Origin: Terriglobus roseus
Lineage (GTDB): Bacteria > Acidobacteriota > Terriglobia > Terriglobales > Acidobacteriaceae
Length of the DNA: 64,000 nucleotides
Reading direction: 5' to 3'
Assembly: GCF_900105625.1 (NCBI RefSeq)
Contig: NZ_FNSD01000001.1
Coordinates: 992,001 to 1,056,000, forward strand
The position numbers and the translations under genes are program-made. Under the pieces are notes generated by a model, which did no database searches, was not told where the DNA came from, and worked only from the letters and a program-made list of their open reading frames with translations. Shown in pieces: positions 9,147-54,002 of this stretch. The first letter of the stretch is position 1. Every line of letters starts with the position of its first letter.

Positions 9147-10235
9147 ATGCAATGGCCTCGTCTTTGTCTCCTGCTAATGGCTGGCATCGCACCCCTGGCT
9201 GCGATTGGGCAAGAACCCAGTGCGTCACTGCCGGACGCTCCCCATCGCGACACGGTGCAGCGCGCCTGCTCAGGCTGTCATACGGTTCAGATGTTTGCCG
9301 GGCGCAGGATGACCCGGCAGCAATGGGGCACGACCGTCTCGAACATGATCGGCCGCGGAGCGAAGATCTCCGACGACGAGTTCGATCAGATTGTCGGCTA
9401 TCTCGCGACGACATTTCCCTTGAACGGCTCGTCTACCGCCAGCACGCCAACTGCGGCGCAGACCAAACCCGCCCGCAAGCCCAGCCTGATTGATCAGGCT
9501 GGTGCTGACGATAAGCAGGTTGTCGATGAGGAGGCCGCCGCGCGTGGCAAGACGGTCTACATTACGGGGTGCATTACCTGTCACGGAACGCGAGCACGCG
9601 GCGGCAGTCGCGGTGCTGATTTGCTGCGCTCTGTGCTGGTCCTGCATGACCGCTATGGCAGCACGCTCGGGCCCTACCTTGCCGAAGGACATCCAAAGAG
9701 CAAACCGGCGATTCTGAGCAAGGAGCAAGTGACGGATCTATCGCATTTTCTCCATCAGCAGATTAGCGATACGTTGCGCACCGGGCCGTATAACAATCCG
9801 CTGAACATCCTGGTGGGCGATGCCCGGGCGGGCAGGCTTTACTTTGAGAACACGGGCGGCTGCACGCGGTGCCACTCGGTCACGGGCGACCTGCAACATA
9901 TCGCCAGTAAATACGATGCACCTGCGCTGCAGCAAAAGATCGTCTTCCCCGATAACCGCGCAATTACCAAGCAAGGGACAGCATCGCGTCAACACGGTGC
10001 CATCACGGTCACCGTCACAACCCCCTCAGGGACGTCGGTAACGGGTGAGCCCACCGATATCGACGACTTCCATGTCTCCCTGCGCGACGCTGCGGGACAC
10101 TACTACAGCTTCACCCGCAGCGCTGACCTCAAGGTGGAGAAGCACGACCCTCTTGCCGGTCATCAAGCATTACTCGACACATACACCGATATGGATATCC
10201 ACGACTTGGTGTCGTATCTGGAGACCCTGCAATGA
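9147..10235 (+). CDS. Secreted three-haem cytochrome c
   Basis: A Sec signal peptide (RLCLLLMAGIAPLAAIG) precedes three haem c motifs: CSGCH at residues 41-45, CITCH at 142-146 and CTRCH at 239-243. These imply two cytochrome c domains plus a third haem-containing C-terminal part. The stop overlaps the start of the PQQ-type dehydrogenase (ATGA), so this is probably its electron acceptor in the periplasm. The upstream frame extends into the isomerase gene; ATG 9147 gives a compact signal peptide, and ATG 9120 is the alternative. Confidence 0.88.
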   Translation: MQWPRLCLLLMAGIAPLAAIGQEPSASLPDAPHRDTVQRACSGCHTVQMFAGRRMTRQQWGTTVSNMIGRGAKISDDEFDQIVGYLATTFPLNGSSTASTPTAAQTKPARKPSLIDQAGADDKQVVDEEAAARGKTVYITGCITCHGTRARGGSRGADLLRSVLVLHDRYGSTLGPYLAEGHPKSKPAILSKEQVTDLSHFLHQQISDTLRTGPYNNPLNILVGDARAGRLYFENTGGCTRCHSVTGDLQHIASKYDAPALQQKIVFPDNRAITKQGTASRQHGAITVTVTTPSGTSVTGEPTDIDDFHVSLRDAAGHYYSFTRSADLKVEKHDPLAGHQALLDTYTDMDIHDLVSYLETLQ

Positions 10236-11830
10236 AGCTTCTTTCAACACTCTTCCTTGCCCTGCTCTCTCTCGCCTCCGTGCATGCAGCAAGTCCACAA
10301 CAGCAGACGGGCGCAGCGCTGGATCCAGCCGCGTTAGTGCATCCGACTCCAGATTCGTGGCCGACGTACAACGGGGATTACTCCGGTCGCCGTTTCAGCG
10401 CGCTCCATCAGATCAACGATAAGAACGTGAAGTCACTGAGCCTGGCGTGGCTGTACCAGTTACCCAACCTTGGGGAGGGGCTGGTGCGCCGGCTGGCTGG
10501 CACGCCGGTGGTTGTCAACGGCGTCATCTACATCACAGTGCCGGACCATGTTTGGGCGATTGACGCGCGGACCAGCAAGCCCTTGTGGCACTACGCGTGG
10601 GCATCCAAGGGCGGGATCCATCTTGGGAATCGCGGCGTCGGCATCTCTGGCGAGTCGTTGTACTTCGAGACACCGGACTGCAACCTCGTTGCCCTGAACA
10701 TAGCGGATGGCAAGAAGCTTTGGAGTCAGTCGATCTGCGATCTGGACCAGATGTATTACGCATCGGTCGCGCCCCTGGTCGTGAAGGATCATGTCATCAC
10801 CGGTGTGAGTGGCGATGACCTGGATCGACCCGGGTTCCTTGAAGCCCATGATCCAAAGACAGGCGCACTGCAGTGGCGCTGGTCAGTGGTGCCAAAGCCG
10901 GGCGAGCCGGGGTCTGAGACATGGCCGAACGCGGATGCGATGGCCCACGGTGGTGGCATGACCTGGATCTCCCCCACCTACGATCCGGAGTTGAATCTCA
11001 TCTACATCGGCACAGGTAATCCTCAGCCAGTGATTGCCGCCAGTGGACGCAATGGCGCCAATCTTTACACAGAGTCCATCGTGGCTCTCCATGCCGATAC
11101 GGGAAAGATGGCTTGGTACTTTCAACCTTCACCGCACGATACCCACGACTGGGACGCGGTGCAGACGCCAATCCTGTTCGATGGCGTGATCGCTGGCAAG
11201 CCGCACAAACTCCTGGCGCAGGCAAGTCGTAATGGTTGGTTCTTCGTACTCGACCGCGAGTCAGGAAAAAATTACGTTAGTTCCGAATTCGTCAAGACAA
11301 ACTGGACCACAGGTGTGGACTCCAAAGGACAACCGATTCCCAACCCCGCCAAGGAACCGCAGATCGCCGGCGCACTCGTCACCCCCGACGCTTCGGGCGG
11401 CGTGAACTGGGCGCCTTCCACATTCAGTCCGGCGACTGGCTTGTTTTACGTGAACGCCACACATTCGTATTCGATGTTCTACATCTTTGACGACAGCGAC
11501 AAACCCGAGGGCTGGGGCGGCCACGAGATGGGCCATTGGACTCAGGCCATGCTGCAAGCCGTGGATTACCAGACCGGCAAAATTAAATGGAGCCACAAGT
11601 GGGAGACACCAGGCGGCGAGAGCGGCCTGCTGAGCACTGCCGGGAACCTTGTGTTTGCAGGAGACTCCAACAACAATCTCATCGCCCTGGATGCGACCGA
11701 GGGCAAACCGCTCTGGCATGCCAACCTGAGCACAGGTATGTCGAATGGTCCCATCACCTATGAACTGGATGGCCATCAATACCTTCTTGTGGGTGCCGGC
11801 GACAAGCTCTTCGCTTTCGTCATGAACTAA
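10232..11830 (+). CDS. PQQ-type (quinoprotein) dehydrogenase, eight-bladed propeller
   Basis: The 532-residue protein begins with a signal peptide (MKLLSTLFLALLSLASVHA). It has repeated propeller-blade segments typical of the methanol/ethanol/glucose dehydrogenase family (YNGDYSGRRFSALHQI, GALQWRW, GKPLWHANL) and the WYFQPSPHDTHDWDAVQTP stretch. It would oxidise alcohols or sugars in the periplasm and pass electrons to the coupled cytochrome. The vicinal Cys-Cys pair used by many PQQ alcohol dehydrogenases to stack on PQQ is absent, so cofactor binding is not certain. I recall that Acidobacteria carry quinoprotein-like families thought to lack PQQ; this protein may be one. Confidence 0.87.
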   Translation: MKLLSTLFLALLSLASVHAASPQQQTGAALDPAALVHPTPDSWPTYNGDYSGRRFSALHQINDKNVKSLSLAWLYQLPNLGEGLVRRLAGTPVVVNGVIYITVPDHVWAIDARTSKPLWHYAWASKGGIHLGNRGVGISGESLYFETPDCNLVALNIADGKKLWSQSICDLDQMYYASVAPLVVKDHVITGVSGDDLDRPGFLEAHDPKTGALQWRWSVVPKPGEPGSETWPNADAMAHGGGMTWISPTYDPELNLIYIGTGNPQPVIAASGRNGANLYTESIVALHADTGKMAWYFQPSPHDTHDWDAVQTPILFDGVIAGKPHKLLAQASRNGWFFVLDRESGKNYVSSEFVKTNWTTGVDSKGQPIPNPAKEPQIAGALVTPDASGGVNWAPSTFSPATGLFYVNATHSYSMFYIFDDSDKPEGWGGHEMGHWTQAMLQAVDYQTGKIKWSHKWETPGGESGLLSTAGNLVFAGDSNNNLIALDATEGKPLWHANLSTGMSNGPITYELDGHQYLLVGAGDKLFAFVMN

Positions 11831-40163: not shown

Positions 40164-40204
40164 CTTCCGCGCCCGCAGCCTTGCGCTCGGGAGAAAGGTT
40201 CAAC

Positions 40205-42952
40205 GTGCGACGCCGCACCTTCCTGGAACTCGCTGCTCTCAGCGCACTGCATCAGGCCGCACCCTCCGCACGCGCTGCCGCGGTCTCCCGCACCGCGGCT
40301 CCTTCCTACGGATCCGGGCATTTCGGCCAGTGGGAGACCGATCGCTTCGGCCTGCCTGCCTATCGCTATACCTGCGACCAGACGCGCGATCCGAAGGCTG
40401 TGGAAGCAGTGAACGAAGCGTGGCGCTCGAGGACGGACCATATCCACCAGTTCGGCAATGACCGCGTCGTCGCCGTCGCCTCCAACTATGGCTACGTTCA
40501 ACTACGCCAGGACGAAGGTAGCCCGAAGTTCCTAAATGACTACTTCCCAGCGAAGCAGCGCTTCGGTGGGGGCATTGGCTACCTCGTTGACGGAGAGCTC
40601 TGTGCAGGAACGCACTATCCATCTCCCAAAGCCGCATCCTTCCAACGCACCTTCGGCACTGGCTATCTTCGCAAGCAGCTTCAAGCAGGCGGCTTTGCCA
40701 TCGACCAGCACATCTTCGCGCCGTTTGGCGACGACCCCGTATTGATCTCGCAGGTCACCATCACCAATCGCACAGCACAGCGTCTCCGCCCACGCTGGAT
40801 TGAGTACTGGGGCTGCCGTCCCTATCAGTTCTCCTACCGCTCCCTAATGGAAGGCTCCGTCATGACTAACGCCGACGCAGTCCCGCAACTGCGACGCGAT
40901 CTGAGTCAGCGCTTCGAACCCCGCTTCGAGCAACTACCCAACACGACCGGCCTTCTCGTCGAACATCACTTCCTTGGGCGCTCGAGAGAGGAAGAAGATC
41001 TTTGGCTGAAGCTCCAGGAATCCTTACGCAAGAATCCTCACGGCTATTTTGGCGGTCCTGTCGCTCCGCTCGCAGCCGGTGCCAGCATGGACGATCTGGC
41101 GCCGCCCGCCACCTTCCTTTTATCGCTCGACGGCGTGGCATCCGGCTTCAGCACCGACGCCAACGCTTTCTTCCGCAATGGACCGGAAGACCCGGTTGGC
41201 GCGCATTCCCCGCTCTCCAGCACGATCGACAGCACAGGCGAACCAGCCTTTCTCCTTGAGCGCGCACTAGACCTCGCACCGCATGAGAGCCAGACGCTCA
41301 CTTTCCTCTACGGTTACCTACCCGAGGGCTTCACGCTCGACTCGCTTATCACCAAATACAGTGCTCAGCCTGCATCGCACCTCGCCGCATCAAGTGAGAA
41401 GTGGAAGGCCAACACGCCAGTCTTCCGCGTGGAGGGTTATCCGTGGATCGAGCGCGAGATCGCATGGAACGCCGGCTATCTTCGCAGCGCGCTCACCTAT
41501 GACAGCTTCTTCCGCGAGCACATCCTCTCGCAGGGTGCGGGCTATCAATACCTCGCGGGCTTGCAGGGTGCCGCGCGGGATCCTCTGCAACACGCGCTCC
41601 CGCTCGTCTTCACCGAGCCCGACATCGTCCGCGGCATCCTTCGATACACCTTGAAAGAGATCCAGCCAGAAGGTTCGCTTCCTTACGGGATCGTGGGCTC
41701 GTCCGTGCCGATGCCCTGCCGTTACCTTCCCAGCGACTCTGAATTGTGGGTTCTCTGGCTCGCGTCGGAGTATGTGCTCGCAACCCGCGATGTTGCGTTC
41801 CTCGACGAGAAAGTCTCCACCTATCCGTCCGGTAGCGCACCGCAACCAGCAAGAACAATCCGTGAGCTACTGGCCCATTGCTTTCAGCACATCACCGAGC
41901 GCATTGGGACGGGCGAGCATGGCTTGCAGCGCATTCTGAATGGCGACTGGAATGACAGCATCGTTGTGAATCGACTGACGCCCGAACAGGTCGCGGAGAT
42001 CACAGCACACGGCGAAAGCGTCTTGAATGCTGCGATGGCTTCGTGGGTCTTCGATCAGTACGCGCGGCTTCTGGAGTACACCCATCAGCCTCAGGCAGCC
42101 AACGCCGCACACGCCAAGGCTGAGGCGCAGCGTCAGGCAGTCCGTCGCCAGTGGACAGGCCGCTGGTTCCGCCGCGCGTGGCTCGGCAAAGACTCTGGCT
42201 GGAATGGAGAAAAGCAGCTCTGGCTCGAACCGCAACCCTGGGCATTGCTCGGCGGTTGCGCCACGCCGGAACAGAGCGTCGAGCTGATCCACGCCATCGA
42301 CGAAATGTCGCGCAAGCCCTCGCCCATCGGAGCGCTTCTGCAAAGTCCAGTCGACCCCACCATGAAAGATGCCGCTGGCTCCGGCACAAACGGCGGCATC
42401 TTCGCTGCCATCAATGCAACGCTCATCTGGGCGCTGGCGCAGCACGACGGCGCAATGGCATGGGACGAGTGGAAGAAGAACACCTTCGCTGTCCACGCAG
42501 AGCGCTACCCCGAGATGTGGTTCGGCATCTGGAGCGGACCCGACGCCTACGACTCCATCTTCGCCAAGCGGCCTGGAGCGACCGGCCCCGACTTCCCAGT
42601 GCTCAACATGCACTCCCACGCCTGGCCGCTCTATACCGCCACGAAGCTTCTGGGGGTGGACTTCCATCAGCAGGGCGTCCACCTGCGTCCGGTGCTGCCG
42701 GAGGCTTCCTACGAATTCGCGACACCGCTCTTCGGCCTTCGCAAAGTTGCGCCGGGCCGCTACTCCGGCTGGTATGAACCCAGCCAACCCGGCCGCTGGA
42801 CGATCACTGTGGAGCTTCCCGATGCCGAGCACACTCGTAGTCGCAGTCTCCTTGTGAACGGTGCCGCCGTGCCCTTGGCCGCCGACCGCAGCCTCATCAC
42901 CTTTGCCGGAGATAGCCGGCCCGGACACCCACTACGTTGGGAGCTCCGCTAA
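40205..42952 (+). CDS. Tat-exported GH94/GH36-like (alpha/alpha)6 glycosidase or phosphorylase
   Basis: The 915-residue protein has a twin-arginine signal (RRRTFLELAALSALHQ) and then a beta-sandwich and an (alpha/alpha)6 barrel like glycoside phosphorylases. Key segments are YLAGLQGAARDPLQHALP and LNGDWNDSIV, with the putative acid Asp in 581-584, as in the GH94 DWND motif. Phosphorolysis outside the cytoplasm would be unusual, so it may be a hydrolase derived from this fold. GTG 40205 follows GGGAGAAAGG and gives the Tat signal directly. It is encoded between GH92 and the permease. Confidence 0.85.
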   Translation: MRRRTFLELAALSALHQAAPSARAAAVSRTAAPSYGSGHFGQWETDRFGLPAYRYTCDQTRDPKAVEAVNEAWRSRTDHIHQFGNDRVVAVASNYGYVQLRQDEGSPKFLNDYFPAKQRFGGGIGYLVDGELCAGTHYPSPKAASFQRTFGTGYLRKQLQAGGFAIDQHIFAPFGDDPVLISQVTITNRTAQRLRPRWIEYWGCRPYQFSYRSLMEGSVMTNADAVPQLRRDLSQRFEPRFEQLPNTTGLLVEHHFLGRSREEEDLWLKLQESLRKNPHGYFGGPVAPLAAGASMDDLAPPATFLLSLDGVASGFSTDANAFFRNGPEDPVGAHSPLSSTIDSTGEPAFLLERALDLAPHESQTLTFLYGYLPEGFTLDSLITKYSAQPASHLAASSEKWKANTPVFRVEGYPWIEREIAWNAGYLRSALTYDSFFREHILSQGAGYQYLAGLQGAARDPLQHALPLVFTEPDIVRGILRYTLKEIQPEGSLPYGIVGSSVPMPCRYLPSDSELWVLWLASEYVLATRDVAFLDEKVSTYPSGSAPQPARTIRELLAHCFQHITERIGTGEHGLQRILNGDWNDSIVVNRLTPEQVAEITAHGESVLNAAMASWVFDQYARLLEYTHQPQAANAAHAKAEAQRQAVRRQWTGRWFRRAWLGKDSGWNGEKQLWLEPQPWALLGGCATPEQSVELIHAIDEMSRKPSPIGALLQSPVDPTMKDAAGSGTNGGIFAAINATLIWALAQHDGAMAWDEWKKNTFAVHAERYPEMWFGIWSGPDAYDSIFAKRPGATGPDFPVLNMHSHAWPLYTATKLLGVDFHQQGVHLRPVLPEASYEFATPLFGLRKVAPGRYSGWYEPSQPGRWTITVELPDAEHTRSRSLLVNGAAVPLAADRSLITFAGDSRPGHPLRWELR

Positions 42953-42973: not shown

Positions 42974-44296
42974 ATGGAACGTCCATACGATCTGCGCCGC
43001 AGCCTACGTCTGCGCGACCTCATCCTCTACGGTATCGTCCTCGTACAACCGACGGCTCCCATGCCCGTCTTTGGTGTGATCTACGAGAAGTCGCACGGGC
43101 ACGTCACCCTGACGATCCTGCTGGCGCTCTTCGCCATGCTGTTCACTGCCATCAGTTACGGCCGCATGGCCCGCGCTTATCCAAAGGGCGGCTCTGCCTT
43201 TCTTTATGTCGGGAAAGAACTTCATCCCGGCCTCGGCTACGTCACCGGTTGGGGTCTGATCCTGGACTACGTCATCAACCCGCTCATCTGCACCATCTGG
43301 TGCAGCACTGCGGCCATGAATTTTCTGCCGCACATTCCGTACGTCGCGTGGGTTGTGGGATTCGTCGTCCTCTTCACCATGCTGAACTGCAACGGGATTG
43401 AAACCTCAGCGCGCATCAACGCCCTTGTCGCCGCATCCCTTGGGCTCATCATTGTCTGGATTCTGGCAGCAGCCATCCACTACATCGTGACCGTGTTGCA
43501 TCCCGGAGCCGCCGGCTTCCTTGCCCCCTTTCAGGCAAACAGCCCTGGCGACCATGCGGCCATCATGCGCGGCACTGCAGCGGCCGTTCTCGCCTACATC
43601 GGCTTCGACGGCATTTCCACACTGGCCGACGAGGCGCACAATCCACACCGGGATATCTCGCGTGCGATCGTGATGACGTGCTTTGCCACCGGCATTCTCG
43701 GCGCCATCGAGGTCTACTTCGCAGAGGTAGCGTGGCCGCGCTCCACGCCGTTCCCTGAGATCAACACCGCCTACATCTTTGTTGCAGGACGTGTGGGCGG
43801 TCCCACCCTCTTCGCCGTCGCAAATTTTGCTCTCTTGATCGCCACGGTCGGCTCCGGCATGGCATCGCAACTCGGGGCTGCGCGCCTGCTCTACGCGATG
43901 GGCCGCGATGGCGCTCTACCGAGCCGCTTCTTCGGCGAAGTCGACACACGACACCACATTCCGCGCAACAACGTCATCCTGATTGGCCTGGTCTGCCTGG
44001 TCGGAGCACTCCTCTTCAGCTTCTCCCTGGGAGCCGACCTTCTCAACTTTGGCGCGTTGCTCGCCTTCATTGGAGTCAACCTGTCTTCTGCGGTGCGCGC
44101 CTGGAGGCAGACCTCTGGCAGCAGACTCAGCCGCCTTCTTCCGCTCGTTTCCTCCACTGCAGGCTTCCTCTCCTGCTGCTTCCTGTGGTGGAATCTGTCG
44201 CCGAAAGCCAAGGCCGCGGGCTGCGCGTGGACGGCGCTAGGGCTTGTTCTCTTTGCAGTGCGCCGTAATACGCGGCAAGCGAGCAGACCAAGTTAA
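42974..44296 (+). CDS. APC family permease
   Basis: The 440-residue inner-membrane transporter has about 12 helices and the amino acid-polyamine-organocation layout: an N-terminal substrate-binding helix (VLVQPTAPMPVFGVI), a conserved loop GRMARAYPKGGSAFLYVG, and AYIGFDGISTLADEAHNP. APC permeases move amino acids, polyamines or related organic ions. As last gene of the operon with an amidase, it may handle a nitrogen-containing product. It starts 21 bp after the GH94-like gene. Confidence 0.92.
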   Translation: MERPYDLRRSLRLRDLILYGIVLVQPTAPMPVFGVIYEKSHGHVTLTILLALFAMLFTAISYGRMARAYPKGGSAFLYVGKELHPGLGYVTGWGLILDYVINPLICTIWCSTAAMNFLPHIPYVAWVVGFVVLFTMLNCNGIETSARINALVAASLGLIIVWILAAAIHYIVTVLHPGAAGFLAPFQANSPGDHAAIMRGTAAAVLAYIGFDGISTLADEAHNPHRDISRAIVMTCFATGILGAIEVYFAEVAWPRSTPFPEINTAYIFVAGRVGGPTLFAVANFALLIATVGSGMASQLGAARLLYAMGRDGALPSRFFGEVDTRHHIPRNNVILIGLVCLVGALLFSFSLGADLLNFGALLAFIGVNLSSAVRAWRQTSGSRLSRLLPLVSSTAGFLSCCFLWWNLSPKAKAAGCAWTALGLVLFAVRRNTRQASRPS

Positions 44297-44441: not shown

Positions 44442-45710
44442 TCACCACGTTTTGCTTGCGATGACGGTAGGCGGGCCCGCTCGTCCTCCTACAGCCGTGG
44501 TTTGAATCACGACCTCGAAGTTCTCGCTGTTCGTGACCGTGCGCAGAGCAGACTCCAAGGACGAAGGGATGGTGACCACTTCGCCTGCGGCCTGCGTCCC
44601 CTGTGACGAGATACCGGCGATGACCATCGCGGGCTGTCCTGTCAGCGGACTCTTGTAGCGAGCTACGATACCGTAATCCTGCCCAATTCTTTGATGGGGA
44701 GTTGTAATGTCGACCGACCAAATGCGTGGCTTCACCTGGGCGTCGGGCTTGCTCTCGACGATGCTTCCAGTCCGGCCGTCGGCGCTCTCCTGAAAGACAA
44801 AAGGCAGGTCCTTGCTCAGCTGCAGCGTCCAGACATTGTCGAGCGCACCGATCAGTACGGCCGGACCGGTTCGAAGATCGGCAAAATTGACTTCGGGAGC
44901 GGGCGATATCAAGTATCGCTGTCCGCTCTTCTCAAGCTGGCCCGCAACGCGCGCTGCAATGTTCGTGTCTTCCAGGGAGAGATTCGGTGAAACCGAGACA
45001 TCACTGGGGCGCTTCGCGCTAGACGCCCAGTCCGTGCCGATGACCGGCATCACGATGCGTACCTGCAAATTAGAACCGGCGAAGGATGTCCAGAAGCGAG
45101 CAATCGGTGTGGGGCGGAGCTTGGCGAAGAGCGGTAGATAACCGAGCAAAGCACCAATCAGCAGACCTGCCAAGACGCCTGCGGCCTGTCTCCACGGCGC
45201 AGCGGGCGGTGTCCGGTGCAAAGTGGCCGCTTGAAGCGGGTCCGCTCCTACCGATACCGCCGCCGGAGGCTTTTCCTGAACTTCCGGCGAAGAGGCCAAC
45301 GGGACAGCGGCGGACGGCTCTGCTACGGCGGGTAAATCGGTGGAGCGGTGGAACTTCGGCAGATAGCTTCCGGGAGGCAGCTCGATACGAATGGCATCGT
45401 CGTGACCGTCCGCATAGTAATACTGCGCCAGTTTCTTGCGGAGTTCCGTCGCCGTCACACGCACGATCGGGTCTGCGTTTGTATCGTAGTCAGGCTTTCG
45501 GCCGAAGACTTCCACGCCGAGCGTTCGCTCCTTAGGCGGCTGTAACTCGGAGTGTGTCAGCGATTCATGGACGACGTAGTTCAGGAATGCCGGGAGGCGT
45601 TTGCTCATCCGGAAGAGCGGATGCGCAAGGAGCCTCTCTAACTCTCTATCAATCGTGCGGCGATCTTCTTCACTGATCTGCGCTGCTGGAATTGGCTGCT
45701 TCTGAACCAT
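44442..45710 (-). CDS. Membrane-anchored winged-helix regulator-like protein (acidobacterial type)
   Basis: The 422-residue protein has an N-terminal region of the type FLNYVVHESL...GVEVFGRKPDYDTNADPIVRV, ending ELRKKLAQYY, resembling an OmpR/CadC-type winged helix. A Pro/Ala-rich linker, one membrane helix around residues 175-194 (VLAGLLIGALLGYLPLF) and a periplasmic domain of about 220 residues follow. I know this layout mainly from Acidobacteria, often next to TonB receptors or glycan genes. It may be a membrane-bound transcription factor for the divergent GH79 operon. That role is inference. Confidence 0.8.
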   Translation of the reverse strand: MVQKQPIPAAQISEEDRRTIDRELERLLAHPLFRMSKRLPAFLNYVVHESLTHSELQPPKERTLGVEVFGRKPDYDTNADPIVRVTATELRKKLAQYYYADGHDDAIRIELPPGSYLPKFHRSTDLPAVAEPSAAVPLASSPEVQEKPPAAVSVGADPLQAATLHRTPPAAPWRQAAGVLAGLLIGALLGYLPLFAKLRPTPIARFWTSFAGSNLQVRIVMPVIGTDWASSAKRPSDVSVSPNLSLEDTNIAARVAGQLEKSGQRYLISPAPEVNFADLRTGPAVLIGALDNVWTLQLSKDLPFVFQESADGRTGSIVESKPDAQVKPRIWSVDITTPHQRIGQDYGIVARYKSPLTGQPAMVIAGISSQGTQAAGEVVTIPSSLESALRTVTNSENFEVVIQTTAVGGRAGPPTVIASKTW

Positions 45711-45767: not shown

Positions 45768-45784
45768 CGCCGTATGATACGTCC
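45768..45784. promoter_or_regulatory. 17-bp palindrome A upstream of the GH79 gene
   Basis: The site is CGCCGTAT-G-ATACGTCC, with 6 of 8 symmetric positions. It lies in the divergent region between the membrane regulator and the GH79 gene and matches the perfect copy at 50336-50352, including the following CCGC. Confidence 0.65.
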
Positions 45785-45897
45785 GCACAAGTAAATGATA
45801 ATGAAAGACTTGTATCGCATGTTGCCGTTAGATCAGGGCTCGGACTGGTTTTCACGGATAGAGTGGGTTCGCGCCTGAAGCAGGTGCAGGAGAGCAC

Positions 45898-47415
45898 GTG
45901 AACACGAAGACAGCGCCGGCCGAACATTCCCAGCCACAGGACAATGAATCCAGAAATACCACCATCGTGAGCCGTCGAGACGTCCTGCTTGGCATGGCAG
46001 CGCTTAGCGGCACGACACTTCTCGATGCGCCGATGATGCGCGCGATGTCTCTTGAAGCCGCTACGGTGACAGTCACGGTTGGCTCCGCAGCTGGCGCAAC
46101 GATCCCCAGCGACTACACCGGCCTGAGTTATGAGACGTCTCAGTTAACTCATCCCGCGTTCTTTGCGAAAGAGGCGTTGGTGTTGGAGCGCTACTTCCGT
46201 TTGTTGGGCAAGGATGGCGTCCTTCGCATCGGCGGCAACATGAGCGAGTTCACGTTCTGGAACACGAAGTCGACCGGCGAGGGATCGCCCACGGATGTGG
46301 AGGGACCCGATCCCGGAAAGGGCTCGGACCGCACCTTCCAGATTCCGCCCGTGGCGATCGACCACCTGGCTGCTTTCCTGGAACGGACCGGCTGGAAGCT
46401 GATCTACGGCCTGAACCTCCGCGCGGGATCTGCAGAGATCGCGGCGGACGAGGCGGAGTATGTCTCCAGGAAGGTTGGCAGCAAACTGATCGCGCTGCAG
46501 TTCGGGAACGAGCCGGACCTTTTCAAGGAAGCCAGCGACGCGTCGAAGCACTGGACCTATAACGAGTTCATCGCGAAGTGGCAGACGTTCTACGACACCG
46601 TGCATTCACGCGTGCCGCATGTGCCCATCGCAGGCCCGGATACATCCTTCCAACCGGTCTGGATGAAGCGATTTGCGGAGGAAGAGAAGGGTAAATTCCA
46701 ACTGCTGACCGGGCACTACTACGCCGGTGGACCGCCGACCGATCCGAAGATGACGACAGAGTTCCTTCTGGAGCCGAATACACGCCTGGTGGATCATGTT
46801 CTGCGTGCGATTGAGATTGCGAAAGCTAACGATGTTCCCTACCGCATGTCCGAAGGCAATACCTGCTACGGCGCGGGCAAAAAGGGCGTCAGCGATACCT
46901 TCGCGTCTGCGCTCTGGGTACTCGATTTCTGGCTGGCATTGGCGCAGCAGGGATCGGTGGGTGTCAACCTTCATGGCGGCGGCAATGGGTACTACACGCC
47001 CATTGCCGGATCGCCTCAGGCGGGCTTCGTCGCCCGGCCCATCTTCTACGGCATGATGCTGGCCGGACAGTTCGCCGGCGCGCAACTGCTTCCATGCACG
47101 TCGGAGAGCGGTGGCAAAAACGTGGTGGGTTACGCAGCGCGCAAGTCAAAGGAAGTGCTGGTGGCCGTCATCAACCGCGGCAGCATCGCTTCCACGGTTG
47201 AGATCACACCGCCCGTGGGAGCTGGGAAAGCTTCGGTATGGAGACTCGAGGCTCCGGCCGTCGACAGCACCAGCGGTGTCACGCTCGCGGGGGCATCTGT
47301 CGATGCCGATGGTAAATGGTCTCCGGCGAAGATCGAGACGCTCCGCATCTCCGCGGGCAAGGGATCCCTGGCGCTTCCGGCCTACAGTGCTGCGCTGGTT
47401 CGCTTCAGCATTTGA
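45898..47415 (+). CDS. Glycoside hydrolase family 79 (beta-glucuronidase-like), Tat-exported
   Basis: The 505-residue enzyme has a twin-arginine signal (VSRRDVLLGMAALSGTTLL) and a GH79 TIM barrel followed by a C-terminal beta domain. The acid/base is probably Glu205 (FGNEPDL) and the nucleophile Glu319 (RMSEGNTC). Their spacing of 114 equals that of Glu173/Glu287 that I recall for the Acidobacterium capsulatum enzyme. It should release glucuronic acid (or 4-O-methyl form) from plant or other glycans. GTG 45898 is supported by AGGAGA. Confidence 0.92.
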   Translation: MNTKTAPAEHSQPQDNESRNTTIVSRRDVLLGMAALSGTTLLDAPMMRAMSLEAATVTVTVGSAAGATIPSDYTGLSYETSQLTHPAFFAKEALVLERYFRLLGKDGVLRIGGNMSEFTFWNTKSTGEGSPTDVEGPDPGKGSDRTFQIPPVAIDHLAAFLERTGWKLIYGLNLRAGSAEIAADEAEYVSRKVGSKLIALQFGNEPDLFKEASDASKHWTYNEFIAKWQTFYDTVHSRVPHVPIAGPDTSFQPVWMKRFAEEEKGKFQLLTGHYYAGGPPTDPKMTTEFLLEPNTRLVDHVLRAIEIAKANDVPYRMSEGNTCYGAGKKGVSDTFASALWVLDFWLALAQQGSVGVNLHGGGNGYYTPIAGSPQAGFVARPIFYGMMLAGQFAGAQLLPCTSESGGKNVVGYAARKSKEVLVAVINRGSIASTVEITPPVGAGKASVWRLEAPAVDSTSGVTLAGASVDADGKWSPAKIETLRISAGKGSLALPAYSAALVRFSI

Positions 47416-47460
47416 GACAACGGGACTCGATTGGCCGAAGCATGGTGAGATAGGAGACAT

Positions 47461-50289
47461 ATGAAGTCCGGTCTTCTCATGGCCGTCAGCGTCTGCCTGG
47501 CTTTGTCAGTCGGTGCGGCTGCCGCACAGCAACGAGGCGCCTCGGCTTTTCTTACGCGGCCCACCGACGACAACGCCCCGACCTTCAACGCGGTGCAGTG
47601 CGCGAATCATGCGGACTGCACCGCAGTTCTTCAGCGGGCGATTGACGATCTGCAGAGCGCACGGCATCAGGGGGTTCTGTGGATTCCCGAGGGCAGCTAC
47701 CGTCTGAGCGGGACCGTCACGGTGTGGACCGGCATCCGGCTCATGGGCTTTGGACAACATAGACCCGTCTTCGAACTCGCCGACAATACATCAGGCTTTA
47801 CTGGAGATAAGCCTCATCCGCTCTTTCACTTTGCGCACGAACGGCCCAAGCCAGGTCTGCCCGTGCAGGACGGTACCTCCGACACCTTCTACAGCGCCTT
47901 TGAGAATCTCGACATCACGGTCGGTAGCGGCAACCCGGCGGCATCGGGAATCCGCTTCCACGTGGCACAGCACGGCATTCTGGCACATCTGAGCATCACC
48001 TTGAAGTCCGGTCATTCGGCGCTGCAGGACGTGGGTAATGTTGCCTTTGACGTACACCTGAAGGGTGGCGATTTCGGCATCGATACCGGCAAGACAGCGC
48101 CAGGCTGGCCTTTCATGCTGATGGACTCCGAGATTGACGGCCAGCATGTTGCCGGCATCCGTACGCGCGAGGCCGGTATGACCCTGGAGCGAGTGACGAT
48201 CGCGCAGACACCCGTCGCCATTGCCATCCCTGAGGGGCAGGTCGATCAACTCTTCCTCTCCAACAGCCTCTTTCGCAACATCTCGGATAGCGGCATACAG
48301 ACCGGCAATGTGAAGAATGCCTGGTCGCAAATCTCCGCCCAGAATCTTGGCTGTGTAGGCGTCAAGCGTCTCTTCCCTGACCTGGGCGACGTCCCCGGCT
48401 ATCGCCGCAGCGAGATGAAGTCCGGAACGTTTGTTGTGGACCGGCTGCGTCTCGGTGTCGCAGTCGGAGCGGACGGAGGAAACACCGGCGTGCATCTTGC
48501 AATCGCATCGCACATCGGCACCTTTGCGATGCTTGTGACAGACGTTGTTGGATTGCCAGCCGTAAACGATTGGGTAAGCGTGCGTGCGCTGGGTGCATCC
48601 GGTGATGGGCTGCATGACGATACCGAAGCGCTACAGACCGCCATTGACGGGCATCGCGTATTGTTTTTCCCCGCAGGCCGCTATCGGCTGACGGGCACCT
48701 TGCACCTGCGGTCCGACACGGTCCTGGTGGGGTCGCAGCCGTTCACCACGCAAATTGTTCTTGCGGACAACACCCCGGCTTTTTCGGGAACCGGTTCCAT
48801 GATCCCAATGGTCGAAGCACCCCGTGGAGGCAGCAACGTCCTGAGCGGCATTGGCATCTCGGCGGGGGCATTCAACCCACGGGCGGCGGGTGTACTGTGG
48901 CAGGCCGGGCCGCGTTCGCTGCTGGAGGATGTCAAGTTCTTCGGCGGTCGGGGCACTCTGTCCGCTGACGGCAAGCCGCTACAGGTGTATCCGGCAACCG
49001 CAGGAGTCGATCCTTCCGATGTATCCAAGGGTTGGGGCACGCAGTTCCCAAGCCTGCTGGTGCGCGGTGGGGGCGGGGTCTTCCGTGGCATATGGAGCGC
49101 AAGCGGCTTCGCGAAGGCCGGTCTTACGATCGAGGACACGGCTGTTCCAGGCCGGATCTACGGCTTCTCCTGCGAACACCACATGCGCAACGAGGTGCAA
49201 TTGCACAGCATTTCGGGCTGGCGTATTGAGGCACTGCAGACCGAGGAAGAGACGGAGCAGGGCCGTGACGCGATCTCGCTCGAGGCGCGTGACGCAAAGG
49301 ATGTGATCTTTGCCAACCTGTTTCAGTACCGCGTTTCGCGAAGCGTGGGACCTGCGGACCACGCGACGGAGATCGGCCAGAACGCATCGTTGGAATTCGC
49401 CAATGTCCACGTCTTTGCGGGTGGCCGTTATGCCTTCGACAACAGCATGCTGGATCTACGCACAGGTGTTCGAACAAGGGTTCGGGACTTCGCCTCCATG
49501 GGAACGGTCACGCCCTTAGTGAAACCTGTTGCATTCAGCGCGTGGCGTGGAGCCAAGCTGCAGGTTCTGGCCTCGGGCTTTCAGGACGTTACAGGAGTGA
49601 TTGCCGAAGCGGATGGTAACGTTCTCTTCACGGACGCGGTTGCTCACCGGTTGCTGCGTTGGGAACGCGCGACTCGTCTCGTGAAGGAACTGGATGTTCC
49701 GGCAGGCTTCCGCCCTGTAGTTGCGGTGTCGTCAGAGCGGGGCTTTGTGACCGTCCTGGGAGCGGATAATCGACTGCTGGAACTCGCCCCGGACGGCGCA
49801 GCGCGGGACGTTGCGACTGCCGCGATCCCCTCCGATGCTCGCCTCCGTCTGCCGGCCGGTGGCCATAGCAATCTTGCAGCAGTTGTCACCGTACAGAACG
49901 CCTCGCGGGGCTTCAACCTTGGAAGAGATGCTGGCTGGCTGCCATCGCCCAAGGACATGCGACCGTTGCTCTACGCCTCGCAGTTTGCAACGCTGTTGCC
50001 GGGGCAGACGCAGCTGCAGGCTCTGGAGGATGGCGCTCGCATCGTCCGGCTCTCCGCAGACGGTGCACACGTTCCCTTTGCCGAAATTGGCGGCACATCG
50101 CTCGCGGCAGGGGCGTTTGGCGAGAGTTACCTGGCTGGCGAGCAGTTGCTGGTCCTGGATCGTGAGGGGCGGCAAGTCGGCACTGTCGCAGTCCCGGAAC
50201 GCCCAACGGCAGTCACTGCCGGGGGCGACGGAACGCTCTATGTAGGCGCCCGCTCAACCCTCTACTCTCTCCCGGTGGAAGCGCACTAG
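47461..50289 (+). CDS. Secreted double pectate-lyase-3 (right-handed beta-helix) protein with C-terminal propeller
   Basis: The 942-residue protein has a signal peptide (VSVCLALSVGAAAA). It contains two related beta-helix modules of the Pectate_lyase_3/GH28-related type. Each opens with the form AIDxxxxxVLxxPxGxYRLxGTxxxxxxxxLxG, near residues 60-100 and 395-430. From about residue 690 short propeller-like repeats occur (GVIAEADGNVLFTDAVAHRLLRW, AVTAGGDGTLYVGARSTLY). Catalytic residues cannot be assigned. It starts 45 bp after the GH79 gene, so both are probably in one operon acting on the same glucuronate-bearing polysaccharide. Confidence 0.82.
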   Translation: MKSGLLMAVSVCLALSVGAAAAQQRGASAFLTRPTDDNAPTFNAVQCANHADCTAVLQRAIDDLQSARHQGVLWIPEGSYRLSGTVTVWTGIRLMGFGQHRPVFELADNTSGFTGDKPHPLFHFAHERPKPGLPVQDGTSDTFYSAFENLDITVGSGNPAASGIRFHVAQHGILAHLSITLKSGHSALQDVGNVAFDVHLKGGDFGIDTGKTAPGWPFMLMDSEIDGQHVAGIRTREAGMTLERVTIAQTPVAIAIPEGQVDQLFLSNSLFRNISDSGIQTGNVKNAWSQISAQNLGCVGVKRLFPDLGDVPGYRRSEMKSGTFVVDRLRLGVAVGADGGNTGVHLAIASHIGTFAMLVTDVVGLPAVNDWVSVRALGASGDGLHDDTEALQTAIDGHRVLFFPAGRYRLTGTLHLRSDTVLVGSQPFTTQIVLADNTPAFSGTGSMIPMVEAPRGGSNVLSGIGISAGAFNPRAAGVLWQAGPRSLLEDVKFFGGRGTLSADGKPLQVYPATAGVDPSDVSKGWGTQFPSLLVRGGGGVFRGIWSASGFAKAGLTIEDTAVPGRIYGFSCEHHMRNEVQLHSISGWRIEALQTEEETEQGRDAISLEARDAKDVIFANLFQYRVSRSVGPADHATEIGQNASLEFANVHVFAGGRYAFDNSMLDLRTGVRTRVRDFASMGTVTPLVKPVAFSAWRGAKLQVLASGFQDVTGVIAEADGNVLFTDAVAHRLLRWERATRLVKELDVPAGFRPVVAVSSERGFVTVLGADNRLLELAPDGAARDVATAAIPSDARLRLPAGGHSNLAAVVTVQNASRGFNLGRDAGWLPSPKDMRPLLYASQFATLLPGQTQLQALEDGARIVRLSADGAHVPFAEIGGTSLAAGAFGESYLAGEQLLVLDREGRQVGTVAVPERPTAVTAGGDGTLYVGARSTLYSLPVEAH

Positions 50290-50335
50290 GAAGATGACTG
50301 GACCAGCGCGAAGGGCCCTTGCAGATGGTGCGGGC

Positions 50336-50352
50336 GGACGTATCATACGTCC
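50336..50352. promoter_or_regulatory. 17-bp perfect palindrome B upstream of the second TonB receptor
   Basis: GGACGTAT-C-ATACGTCC is fully symmetric. It contains a good -10 hexamer TATCAT (50341-50346) with TTGCAG 16 bp upstream (50319-50324), so a bound repressor would cover the promoter. It is the same motif as the site at 45768. Confidence 0.7.
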
Positions 50353-50543
50353 CTTTCCCGACGTCCAGAAAATCCCCTAACGTACAGATTCGATGAGACG
50401 TAAGTGGGGCGGTTAATGCGGCTTCGTGTCTGTACCGTAAGGCACTAACCAACGGTCATTCCGTCTACGTAGATTTGCCCGCGTTGTTGGATCAGAAAGA
50501 AGCTGGCGGCGAACGAACGCCCAGCATGGAGAAGCTACAGAAG

Positions 50544-53500
50544 ATGAAACACAACTTACGAGGCAAGTGGCAGAGCGCAGCACAGATTTCCGGTGATGGA
50601 CGACGTGGACCGGGGTCACGAGCGGTTTGGTTGGCGGCGTCGTTGACCCTTGGCGCGGGGTTCATGGGCTCCACCATCTTCCCAAGAGCGATGTACGCGC
50701 AGAGTGCCAACGCTACCGTTCGCGGATCGGTTACAGATGCTGGCGGATCGCTGGTTCCAAACGCCACGGTCGCGCTGCGCAACCAGGAGACCCGCGTCCT
50801 GGTATTCCAGGGTAAGGCGCAGGAGAACGGGACCTTCGTCGTCCCGCAGGTCCCGGCCGGCAACTATTCGCTGACCGTCGAGGCCCCGGGCATGAAGACG
50901 TCCACGCTGAACGACATCGTCGCCAGCGTCTCGCAGGTCACCTCGCTGGAGGTGAAGCTTGAGGTTGGTTCGGCGAACGAGCAGGTGACCGTGACGGCCG
51001 CCACGGTGACGCAGGACCTAGACCGCGATACCTCGAATATCAGCACGCTGATCTCACCGGCTGAGGTGCAGAACCTTCCGCTGCAGTCCCGCGACGCCTA
51101 CAACCTGCTGGCCATAGTGCCCGGCATCACGCACGGCGGCTCCGCGACCAACGTCAATCAGCAGCAGATCTCCATCAACGGCAGCCGCTCACTCAATACG
51201 GAACTGCTGCTGGACGGTGTCTCCCTGGTGGTCCCCTCCACCGGCTTCACCGCTGGCCTCCCCTCGCCCGATGGCATCACCGAGTTCCGCGTCCTGTCGC
51301 TGAACGCTCCAGCGGAGTTCGGCAGAACCTCAGGCGGTGTGATCACCGTCAGCACCAAATATGGCACGGACACCTTCCACGGCAACCTGTACACGCTGGC
51401 TCGCAACGAGATCCTGAATGCCAACAGCTACGCCAACGGACTCAAGAGTCCCGTCGTGGCGAAACAGCGCGATCGCTATTTCCAGTTTGGAGGCAGCATT
51501 GGTGGACCACTTTTTGTCCCGCGGCTGTACGGACGCAACCACCAGACGTTCTTCTTCGTGAACTACGATCGCACGCTGCAGTTGGTGCCGGACACACAGA
51601 CACAGACAGTGCCGACGGCCGATTGGCGTGCCGGTAATTTCAGTTCGGCACTCACCACCATCGTGAATCCTGTAACGAGGACACCCTTCGTGGGCAACCG
51701 GCTGTCCTCGATCGACCCGGCTGCGGCGGCGATCATGGCGCGGCTGCCGTTGCCGAACACTACCGGCACTTTCGATGCGGTAAACAACCGTTATACGAGT
51801 AATTACGTGTACTCCACGACGCGCCGCTTGAACTCGCAGCGTGTGGTCGGACGTCTCGATCAGCAGATCCACACATCGGATCGCCTCTTCGCGTCGGTCT
51901 ATCGATTCACGGGCAGCTCGCCACAGGTCGCCGACTATAACGATGCCCTGCTGAACACCACTTACGATTGCGCCTGCACCGAGGGATGGTCTGCATCGCT
52001 GGGCGAAACACACGTCTTCACGCCGACACTTGTGAGCGAATTGCACTTCGGGTTCTTCCGCTATGGATCGTTCCGCAATCCCACGGGAGACAATGCCAAT
52101 GTCCCCAGCACCTTCAAGATTCCCAGCACGCCCATGGATCAACTTCCGTATCTGAATATCAGCGGTAACTCTGCCATCGGCGCGAACACGAACACGACGC
52201 AGTTCAACGTGACCAATACCTTCACGCCTTTTGGATCTATCACGAAGACCTGGGGCCCACACACGATCAAGGCCGGTTTCGCCTACCGTTGGAACCAGTT
52301 CAACTCCTTCAACCCTGCGTCGTATGTGAATGGATCCCTGAACTTCAACGGCGAGATCACCAGTCCCAACGCCACCACGGGCAACCCTGCGAATGCGTTG
52401 GCCGACTTCCTGCTGGGCCGAATCAAGACCGGGAATTATGAGATTCCTCAGCCCGCCACGGGTCGGCGGAATCACAACCTTGGATTGTTTGCACAGGATG
52501 ACTTCCGAGTGAACTCCAAGTTGACTCTGAACCTGGGCGTTCGCTACGAGTATGAATCGCCACAGACCGTCAGCAACAACATCTACTCGCGTATTCAAGA
52601 ATCGACGGGCACGCTGCTGGTCGCAGGCAAAAATGCATCGACCTCGCTGAACATCAATACGCCAAAGCTAAACTTTTCGCCGCGCCTGGGCTTCGCCTAC
52701 AGCGCGAATCCTTCGACCGTAATTCGTGGGGGCTTTGGCACCTTCTATGGCCTCGTGCTGTCCAACCTCGGCGGTCAGATTGCCTATCCCGGTTACGACG
52801 TGACATCGAGTTACAACAACCTTGGCACGGCGGTGGCGCAGCCGTTCACGCTGTCGCAGGGCCTGCCCCTGAATGGGGTGCGCGACCTGAACAATCCAGG
52901 TGCGGTATTCAACGGCACTAGCGCTGCTAATCCGCTGACGATTAGCGGTGTCCAGTTCGGCGGCCTCTCTCCCATGTCGATGGTGCAGCAGTACAACCTG
53001 GGTGTGCAGCAGAAGCTCCCCTGGAACATGCTGGCGGAGATCAACTACGTGGGCAATCACGGTCTGCATCTACCGGTGAACGTACCTCAGAATCTGGTGC
53101 CGATCTCGCAGTGGGACTCCGTCGCGCTGGCAAACTCCACGCTGGCGCAGCAGAACGCCAAGCCCTTCCACAACATTGGATCGTTCACTTCGGTCTACAA
53201 CGTTGGCAACGCTCGTTACAACGCGCTGCAGGCTTCGTTGCGAAGGCAGTTCAGCACCAGCCTTGCATTTATTGCAAATTACACGTGGTCCAAAAACCAG
53301 GATGATGACAGCAGTATCTTTGGCAATGGCGTGCCCACCAATGCTTCGGCCCACGCGCAATACTCGGGCGATAACAAGTTGCGGCGTGCAGACTATGCAC
53401 TCAGTAGTTTCGACACACGCAATACGCTGAACGTTGCGCTGCAGTTCACGACGCATGGACCTGTATGGCTACGTGACTTTAAGATCGCTCCCATCTTCGT

Positions 53501-54002
53501 CATGCGGTCCGGCACGCCAGTCAACATCACGCAGAATAACCTGATACCAAACGTGACGGCGCAGCGCCCGAATGGCAGCAGCCAAAATCTGAAGATCAAC
53601 AAATATCGCGACGGCAGTGTCATCCGTTACTTCCGCCCGATCACCGATGCCAACTTCCCGCTGACGCCGAGCGGTCCGCTCTTCGTCGGCACAGGGACGG
53701 CGCGTCGTGCAATTATCCCGGCAGCGCTGGGAACACTGGGCCGCAACAGCATCACAGGGCCGGGGGAAGTCAACCTGGACTTGTCCATCTCACGAACGCT
53801 GCCCATTTACAAAGAAGCGAAGTTCCAGATTCGCCTGGACGCCTTCAACGTACTGAACCACGTCAACCTGCAATTCCCGAATACTTCGCTGACCGCGACG
53901 GTATCCGGGACGACCCCTATTTTCAACTCATCCACCTTCGGCACGATTAGTTCCGCACAGCCGATGCGGGTGATGCAGTTGGTAGGCAGAATCACCTTCT
54001 AA
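50544..54002 (+). CDS. TonB-dependent receptor with carboxypeptidase-regulatory-like domain (second)
   Basis: The outer-membrane receptor of about 1150 residues has a long N-terminal basic segment before the export signal (VWLAASLTLGAGFMGSTIF). A regulatory-like beta domain (ATVRGSVTDAGGSLVPNATV), a plug (NGSRSLNTELLLDGVS) and a barrel ending in Phe (LVGRITF) follow. ATG 50544 is chosen for the GGAGAAG upstream; ATG 50526 is possible. It follows the GH79 and beta-helix genes and shares their palindrome, so it probably imports glucuronic-acid-containing oligosaccharides. This gene is distinct in sequence from the receptors at 27338 and 61279. Confidence 0.9.
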   Translation: MKHNLRGKWQSAAQISGDGRRGPGSRAVWLAASLTLGAGFMGSTIFPRAMYAQSANATVRGSVTDAGGSLVPNATVALRNQETRVLVFQGKAQENGTFVVPQVPAGNYSLTVEAPGMKTSTLNDIVASVSQVTSLEVKLEVGSANEQVTVTAATVTQDLDRDTSNISTLISPAEVQNLPLQSRDAYNLLAIVPGITHGGSATNVNQQQISINGSRSLNTELLLDGVSLVVPSTGFTAGLPSPDGITEFRVLSLNAPAEFGRTSGGVITVSTKYGTDTFHGNLYTLARNEILNANSYANGLKSPVVAKQRDRYFQFGGSIGGPLFVPRLYGRNHQTFFFVNYDRTLQLVPDTQTQTVPTADWRAGNFSSALTTIVNPVTRTPFVGNRLSSIDPAAAAIMARLPLPNTTGTFDAVNNRYTSNYVYSTTRRLNSQRVVGRLDQQIHTSDRLFASVYRFTGSSPQVADYNDALLNTTYDCACTEGWSASLGETHVFTPTLVSELHFGFFRYGSFRNPTGDNANVPSTFKIPSTPMDQLPYLNISGNSAIGANTNTTQFNVTNTFTPFGSITKTWGPHTIKAGFAYRWNQFNSFNPASYVNGSLNFNGEITSPNATTGNPANALADFLLGRIKTGNYEIPQPATGRRNHNLGLFAQDDFRVNSKLTLNLGVRYEYESPQTVSNNIYSRIQESTGTLLVAGKNASTSLNINTPKLNFSPRLGFAYSANPSTVIRGGFGTFYGLVLSNLGGQIAYPGYDVTSSYNNLGTAVAQPFTLSQGLPLNGVRDLNNPGAVFNGTSAANPLTISGVQFGGLSPMSMVQQYNLGVQQKLPWNMLAEINYVGNHGLHLPVNVPQNLVPISQWDSVALANSTLAQQNAKPFHNIGSFTSVYNVGNARYNALQASLRRQFSTSLAFIANYTWSKNQDDDSSIFGNGVPTNASAHAQYSGDNKLRRADYALSSFDTRNTLNVALQFTTHGPVWLRDFKIAPIFVMRSGTPVNITQNNLIPNVTAQRPNGSSQNLKINKYRDGSVIRYFRPITDANFPLTPSGPLFVGTGTARRAIIPAALGTLGRNSITGPGEVNLDLSISRTLPIYKEAKFQIRLDAFNVLNHVNLQFPNTSLTATVSGTTPIFNSSTFGTISSAQPMRVMQLVGRITF

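Follow-up and report, generated by a model that had tools for sequence, protein, structure and literature searches.

A Palindrome Beside a Glucuronidase and TonB-Dependent Receptor Locus of Terriglobus roseus Suggests a Docking Site for a Neighbouring Membrane-Anchored Regulator

Introduction

Acidobacteriota are abundant soil degraders. In the 64,000-nucleotide stretch of Terriglobus roseus DNA analysed here (contig NZ_FNSD01000001.1, positions 992,001 to 1,056,000; the window), genes for a GH79 beta-glucuronidase, a beta-helix protein and a TonB-dependent receptor follow one another, and a 17-bp palindrome before the receptor gene has a near copy before the GH79 gene (Table 1). This raises the question of which protein binds the palindrome and which genes it controls. 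Sequence comparison leads us to put at roughly 0.78 the probability that the palindrome serves as operator for the membrane one-component regulator encoded divergently, with autorepression and local control of the receptor, GH79 and beta-helix genes being most likely.

Palindromic Sites in the Window and in the Genome

The palindrome before the receptor gene, GGACGTATCATACGTCC, is perfect over its 17 bp, as the initial annotation had described it, with 0 mismatches. It covers the putative −10 element TATCAT (50341–50346), which agrees with the placement proposed there, and TTGCAG, 16 bp before TATCAT (50319–50324), is a poor −35 element. The receptor open reading frame starts at TTG, and a later ATG at 50527 is a possible alternative start. 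The near copy, CGCCGTATGATACGTCC, sits in the gap between the regulator and GH79 genes. Its conservation on one side through CGTCCGC had been recognised correctly, but not its orientation, since the two copies read on opposite strands: CGTATGATACGTCCGC is read on the plus strand at 45768 and on the minus strand at 50336.

Table 1. Coordinates of the genes, predicted protein domains and candidate regulatory elements in the window.
Feature	Position	Strand	Remarks
Predicted membrane-anchored regulator, 422 aa, whole gene	44442–45710	−	Homologues carry the candidate operator
Putative periplasmic sensor domain, residues 200–422, fold of the C-terminal part of BcsB	44445–45113	−	Structure comparison
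Single predicted transmembrane helix, residues 172–195	45126–45197	−	Suggested by AlphaFold2 helix and hydrophobic stretch
Predicted DNA-binding domain, residues 14–121, helices followed by a beta-hairpin 'wing'	45348–45671	−	AlphaFold2; weakly PhoB/SaeR-like
Candidate operator, weaker	45768–45784		Gap between regulator and GH79 genes; GCCGTATGATAC in L200
GH79 beta-glucuronidase	45898–47415	+	PF03662; Acidobacterium capsulatum beta-glucuronidase 5g0m_A, E 8.4e-114
Beta-helix (pectate-lyase-like) protein	47461–50289	+	PF12708, two stretches
Possible receptor promoter, TTGCAG-16-TATCAT, under the candidate operator	50319–50346	+	Poor −35, not conserved in type
Candidate operator, strong, perfect 17-bp palindrome	50336–50352		Precedes the receptor gene; identical at L200 14785
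TonB-dependent receptor with CarboxypepD_reg	50475–54002	+	PF25183, PF13620, PF07715 (Plug)

Scanning the window with the 17-mer at up to three mismatches found two places, against 0.05 expected from shuffling. In the whole genome of 4.81 Mb, the S-centred 17-mer at up to three mismatches has three places (with 0, 2 and 3 mismatches), the first two of which are the window sites, and its backwards control has nine. The genome has two copies of the exact core CGTATSATACG, and each of them is at the window locus. At up to one mismatch this core has 24 places versus 43 in the control, and so only the full-strength sites are distinctive. GTATNATACGTCC at up to one mismatch finds both window sites and one place elsewhere with one mismatch. 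A search of the same genome for a genome-wide regulon gave no further strong site at full core strength, and the regulon therefore looks strictly local. The genome-wide motif scan that the initial annotation had proposed thus returned the exact core only here, and not many copies at unrelated genes. The window palindromes are rare and local and are not a repeated element.

The neighbours of the sites are the genes for the 422-aa protein, the GH79 enzyme, the beta-helix protein and the receptor; no LacI or GntR gene is adjacent, in agreement with the earlier statement that a classical regulator gene is absent next to the palindromes. The Acidobacterium capsulatum beta-glucuronidase (5g0m_A) is among the closest solved relatives of the window GH79 enzyme. 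On the other side of the regulator gene lie a GH94-like phosphorylase gene (40181–42952) and an amino-acid permease gene (42974–44296). The leader of the receptor gene contains a possible hairpin, ACCGT-AAGGCACTAACCA-ACGGT (50434–50456), with counterparts in L199 near 8144 on the minus strand and in the L200 leader; paired changes are seen in two relatives, and the three sequences folded are too few for a claim.

Conservation of the Locus

Of 398 family genomes, 6, the own genome included, have an ortholog proper, defined by E ≤1e-85. The locus of another genus, L200, has the same gene order, with identities of 58% for the regulator, 67% for the GH79 enzyme, 49% for the beta-helix protein and 72% for the receptor. 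It keeps both sites: the 17-bp palindrome ahead of the receptor gene is perfect, and GCCGTATGATAC lies between the regulator and GH79 genes. The gaps of the window and L200 align at identities of 0.65 and 0.64, compared with 0.60 (sd 0.04) after shuffling, and the only strings of at least 8 bp that these gaps share are the 18-bp operator at the receptor gene and the 12-bp operator. The proposal that the GH79, beta-helix and receptor genes share an operator is thus supported by a four-gene layout kept with both sites in another genus. Conservation in relatives, which the initial annotation had named as a point on which its reading could fail, is seen in the sites kept beside the relatives' regulators.

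Other orthologous loci are arranged differently. In L199, from the genome of L019, the regulator and receptor genes stand back to back; the distance between its two sites is 51 bp, and the one on the receptor side is the stronger. The L019 receptor on the far side of the site is 66% identical to the window receptor. L201 contains regulator, receptor and GH10 genes, and L202, from the genome of L065, contains regulator, receptor, GH79 and GH10 genes. In Terriglobus roseus DSM 18391 (L064), the regulator gene is broken by two stops, fragments of the GH79 and beta-helix genes lie in inverted order at 9200–11268, no receptor lies in the flank that was retrieved, and a single site, which has the GTATNATAC core, is left; from its sequence, the module in this strain is one that has decayed together. 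Among 19 genomes of the own genus, no second intact example was found and four hold the exact core; in the three of these besides the own genome, the core has no regulator match at E 1e-40 nearby. Conservation within the genus is invisible because the sole other ortholog there is a pseudogene.

Predicted Structure of the Regulator

The 422-aa regulator has no match in Pfam or NCBIfam, and none in Pfam up to an E-value of 5. The AlphaFold2 model (71 sequences; mean pLDDT 84) consists of an N-terminal domain (residues 14–121), a linker, a helix (residues 172–195) and an alpha/beta domain, and the helix is hydrophobic and lies between the two folded domains. The putative periplasmic domain resembles BcsB (6yg8_B; Z 11.8, rmsd 3.5, 166 aligned) as well as the N-terminal domains of alpha-glucuronidases of GH115 (4zmh_B; Z 10.3) and GH67 (1mqp; Z 9.9). 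For the N-terminal domain, SaeR (4u88_B; Z 6.5, with the whole model) and PhoB (1gxp_A; Z 4.9, the best match with this domain alone) are fold matches below the safe level, and Foldseek with this domain alone gave none under E 0.001. LacI and GntR members are missing from the list of fold matches of this domain, an absence that excludes nothing.

An hhalign comparison with 13 Trans_reg_C domains taken from the own genome gave a probability of 2.1% (P 0.023) in a sensible register. A paralog (L062, at C1:1090086) matches the window protein with E 7.3e-8 and also PF00486 above the cut-off, at 32.5 and 31.1 bits. Since this paralog bridges the window protein and PF00486, the modelled N-terminal domain is likely to be a winged helix. 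The family profile against sequences of solved structures gave one match, which has E 1.2 and is unrelated.

Sixteen tblastn matches to the regulator family, corresponding to about a dozen genes, lie on C1 of the own genome. Most of these paralogs have no Pfam match, and several are longer with other C-terminal parts. A search for palindromes at the own-genome paralogs gave no clear operator for any single one. Two family members, L133 and L137, are on contigs of metagenome-assembled genomes labelled Rhodanobacteraceae and Methanoregulaceae, and they group with the acidobacterial ones; bin contamination is a likelier account of their placement than transfer.

Distribution of the Sites Beside Regulator Homologues

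The 17-mer at up to two mismatches matched 30 of 200 family genomes, and the backwards control had more places in total. Because there is no enrichment over the control, this search alone is no evidence, and the lead was tested separately. The exact core has seven places outside the own genome in the 200 family genomes, five of them directly before a gene for a homologue of the 422-aa protein; of the other two, one is inside a coding frame in G031 and one is in G151:C24. L005, which has a core one base off, has no regulator homologue within 3 kb.

From the 251 relatives of the 422-aa protein in a collection of named genomes, the loci of the 80 best were taken. In these loci, a few of which are near-identical (for example L101 and L102) so that counts are not all independent, the exact core occurs 23 times in the 30.4 kb upstream of the regulator gene versus twice in the 1,271.8 kb elsewhere, and those two lie shortly after a regulator gene, at 845 bp in L086 and at 116 bp in L124. 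For the shorter word GTATnATAC, the 1.302 Mb contain 65 sites. Of these, 47 fall between −400 and +30 of the regulator gene, 15 follow the gene at up to 1 kb and belong without exception to clade D, and 3 are elsewhere. Hence, 62 of the 65 stand just before or after the regulator gene. In 20 further genomes, selected for bearing a relative (about 88 Mb), there are 24 exact cores versus 13 in the control, mostly one per genome; at least 13 of the cores are at the regulator gene, as seen in the 17 loci read, and two more (L082 and L088) likewise. These distributions suggest that the membrane-anchored regulator encoded next to the palindrome docks there. The initial annotation named the divergent membrane protein as a candidate binder and held a distant LacI- or GntR-type protein to be equally possible. 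The candidate stands and the equality does not: since the site travels with homologues of the membrane protein (44442–45710), the latter is most likely by far the better binder candidate.

A second conserved word, TACCCGATNNAAC, occurs once each in 23 of the 80 loci (L067, L068, L069, L072–L074, L077, L078, L081–L084, L087–L092, L096, L101, L102, L105 and L112), always upstream of the regulator gene on the target side and nowhere else in those loci. It does not occur in the window, and it may be a further operator or belong to the target promoter.

Palindromic Words and Sugar Targets of the Clades

A quick maximum-likelihood tree of 118 homologues groups the window protein with L019 and L065 as clade A (SH-aLRT 100), within a 45-row group that also contains clades B, C and D (SH-aLRT 97). 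A hypothesis-free count of all palindromic words with arms of 4–5 and gaps of 0–7 in the upstream regions, whose p-values treat related loci as independent and are uncorrected for the number of words, gave GTATnATAC as the top word: it is present in 4/4 upstream regions of clade A, 10/10 of clade B, 16/16 of clade C and 7/16 of clade D. Among the 256 words of the form X4-N-X4', the one with GTAT occurs in 37 of the 46 upstream regions of clades A–D, and the runner-up in 2. If the 1 kb after the gene is included, GTATnATAC is found in 45 of the 46 loci of clades A–D (missing: L131) versus 4 of 60 upstream regions of other clades. The word of clade F is TCTTATCnnGATAAGA (5/5) and that of clade H is CGTAnnnTACG (6/9), with weaker cases in clades E, I and N; the words of clades I, J, K, N and O, coming from closely related members of a single genus, are weak. 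The palindrome thus tracks the protein clade, as expected if the protein binds it.

The clade F regulators L104, L119, L122, L127 and L143, from Granulicella-like genomes, have TCTTATCnnGATAAGA upstream and lie beside receptor genes. This word is probably a further operator used by the same family.

The neighbours of the regulator are sugar genes, which change by clade; they were identified by tblastn with representatives, with Pfam on the representatives, and the census is not exhaustive. The target is a trehalase in 9/10 loci of clade B, GH3 and/or GH2 in 10/12 loci of clade C with long flanks, and GH3 in 11/16 loci of clade D. A receptor gene is present in the loci of clades E (6/6) and F (5/5) and, within the retrieved DNA, in those of clade H (9/9), and a receptor gene is divergent to the regulator gene in 7/14 loci of clade G. 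We see an even chance that this unmodelled membrane-anchored family, with a BcsB-like sugar sensor, provides the principal local switch for glycan loci across Acidobacteriota, with a palindrome and a sugar target specific to each clade.

Promoter Geometry and Sign of Control

At the regulator-facing sites of the sister clades B and C, TRGACA is present upstream of TATSAT in 22 of 22 cases, 18 of them at a distance of 17 bp and 4 at 18 bp, and in the opposite direction these sites have nothing comparable. The palindrome thus covers the −10 element of the promoter from which the regulator itself is expressed, and autorepression of the regulator is likely in these two clades. A second site, 134–171 bp off on the trehalase side, is present in 7/10 loci of clade B. 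In clade D, the site is after the regulator gene and before the GH3/receptor genes in 14/16 loci and upstream in 7/16, with L138 having the upstream site only. Since most clade D sites are after the gene, autoregulation is not general. The target-side sites have no consistent −35 element, and those of clade D have none at the right distance.

For the target promoters, repression is slightly more likely than not. The same binder may also activate the targets and repress only its own gene, as would be the case for a protein like ToxR, CadC or Bacteroidota SusR/HTCS, and we give this possibility somewhat less than even odds. The best-studied membrane one-component regulators activate, as described in PMC5430869; the target-side site of clade D is upstream of the target operon, again with no −35 element at the right distance, and clade B has a separate promoter-like stretch, seen by eye, after its target-side site. 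At the window receptor gene, however, the palindrome covers the only promoter-like pair seen, TTGCAG-16-TATCAT, whose −35 element is poor.

Proposed Mechanism and Alternative Binders

We infer binding by the regulator, its dimerisation, its ligand and its membrane topology. A dimer of the cytoplasmic DNA-binding domains would bind GGACGTAT-S-ATACGTCC both in the regulator–GH79 intergenic gap and, more strongly, before the receptor gene 4.6 kb away. The periplasmic BcsB-like domain may sense a glucuronide-containing saccharide and alter occupancy across the membrane; a glucuronide is proposed as the clade A ligand on the basis of GH79 and, in relatives, GH10. The regulator would repress itself through an operator over its own −10 element, as in clades B and C, and would exert local control over the receptor, GH79 and beta-helix genes.

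Many sugar regulators of the LacI and GntR families bind palindromes, and the neighbour is itself a putative binder, so that a factor of either family or of another kind, encoded elsewhere, might bind the palindrome and control the regulator together with its neighbours. Such a distant factor is unlikely, because the sites are almost confined to the homologues of one protein (62/65), because the 20 further genomes mostly have one exact core each and 13 of the 17 loci read have it at the regulator gene, and because the palindrome changes with the clade of the membrane protein. It is less probable still, to the point of being hard to credit, that the conserved word is no operator and chiefly serves as a −10 element, its symmetry being incidental to TATSAT reading on both strands. 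The exact spacing of 17–18 bp behind TRGACA in clades B and C would fit this, but conservation extends past the hexamer to the C/G arms and the outer GGAC/GTCC, the word is rare at other promoters (two exact cores elsewhere in 1.3 Mb of flanks), the clade D site is after the gene and has no −35 element, and 7/10 loci of clade B have a second copy on the target side. Binding by the neighbouring membrane regulator is therefore the preferred reading.

Comparison with Known Systems

Membrane one-component regulators are an already known kind. According to the survey of transmembrane one-component regulators (TTRs) in PMC10269533, Acidobacteriae are among the groups richer in them, and that survey relied on Pfam models of DNA-binding domains; the window protein has no such match and would thus go uncounted there. 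In searches of the open-access literature, including PMC3174227, PMC10269533 and PMC5430869, this regulator family, its operator and the link to sugar loci were not found, nor did searches of the open-access literature find a described glycan regulator of Acidobacteriota with a mapped operator. If the present reading is true, one protein family that has no Pfam model explains the switching of individual sugar loci, several clades each offer an operator that can be put to the test, and a family of this sort is overlooked when membrane regulators are surveyed with Pfam DNA-binding models. If, beyond this, the family is the main local glycan switch with a palindrome and a sugar target for every clade, operator and sensor could be read together from sequence, and in most clades the binding site could be located without experiment.

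In fold, the periplasmic domain is like BcsB, the periplasmic subunit of cellulose synthase, and the N-terminal domains of GH67 and GH115 alpha-glucuronidases, but identity is 12–14%, there is no common enzymatic role, and the common fold shows no ligand. PhoB/OmpR-type domains are the best fold matches of the N-terminal domain, and the paralog L062 reaches PF00486, whereas the window protein itself falls short of it.

In SusR/HTCS systems, a membrane protein beside a TonB-dependent receptor and glycosidases exerts local control. The window locus is like the polysaccharide utilisation loci of Bacteroidota in its receptor and glycosidase neighbours and its proposed local control, and its regulator differs from SusR/HTCS in phylum and architecture: Y_Y_Y, histidine kinase, receiver and AraC domains were found neither in the window protein (Pfam, E ≤5) nor in the list of 25 families that matched 71 relatives (E ≤1). 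The window protein may share with TTRs of the ToxR/CadC type a predicted layout of an N-terminal winged-helix-like domain, a long linker, one transmembrane helix and a C-terminal periplasmic domain. Unlike them, it has neither Trans_reg_C nor any other Pfam match, its sensor has a BcsB-like fold, and its putative operator is a short odd-centred palindrome linked to sugar genes.
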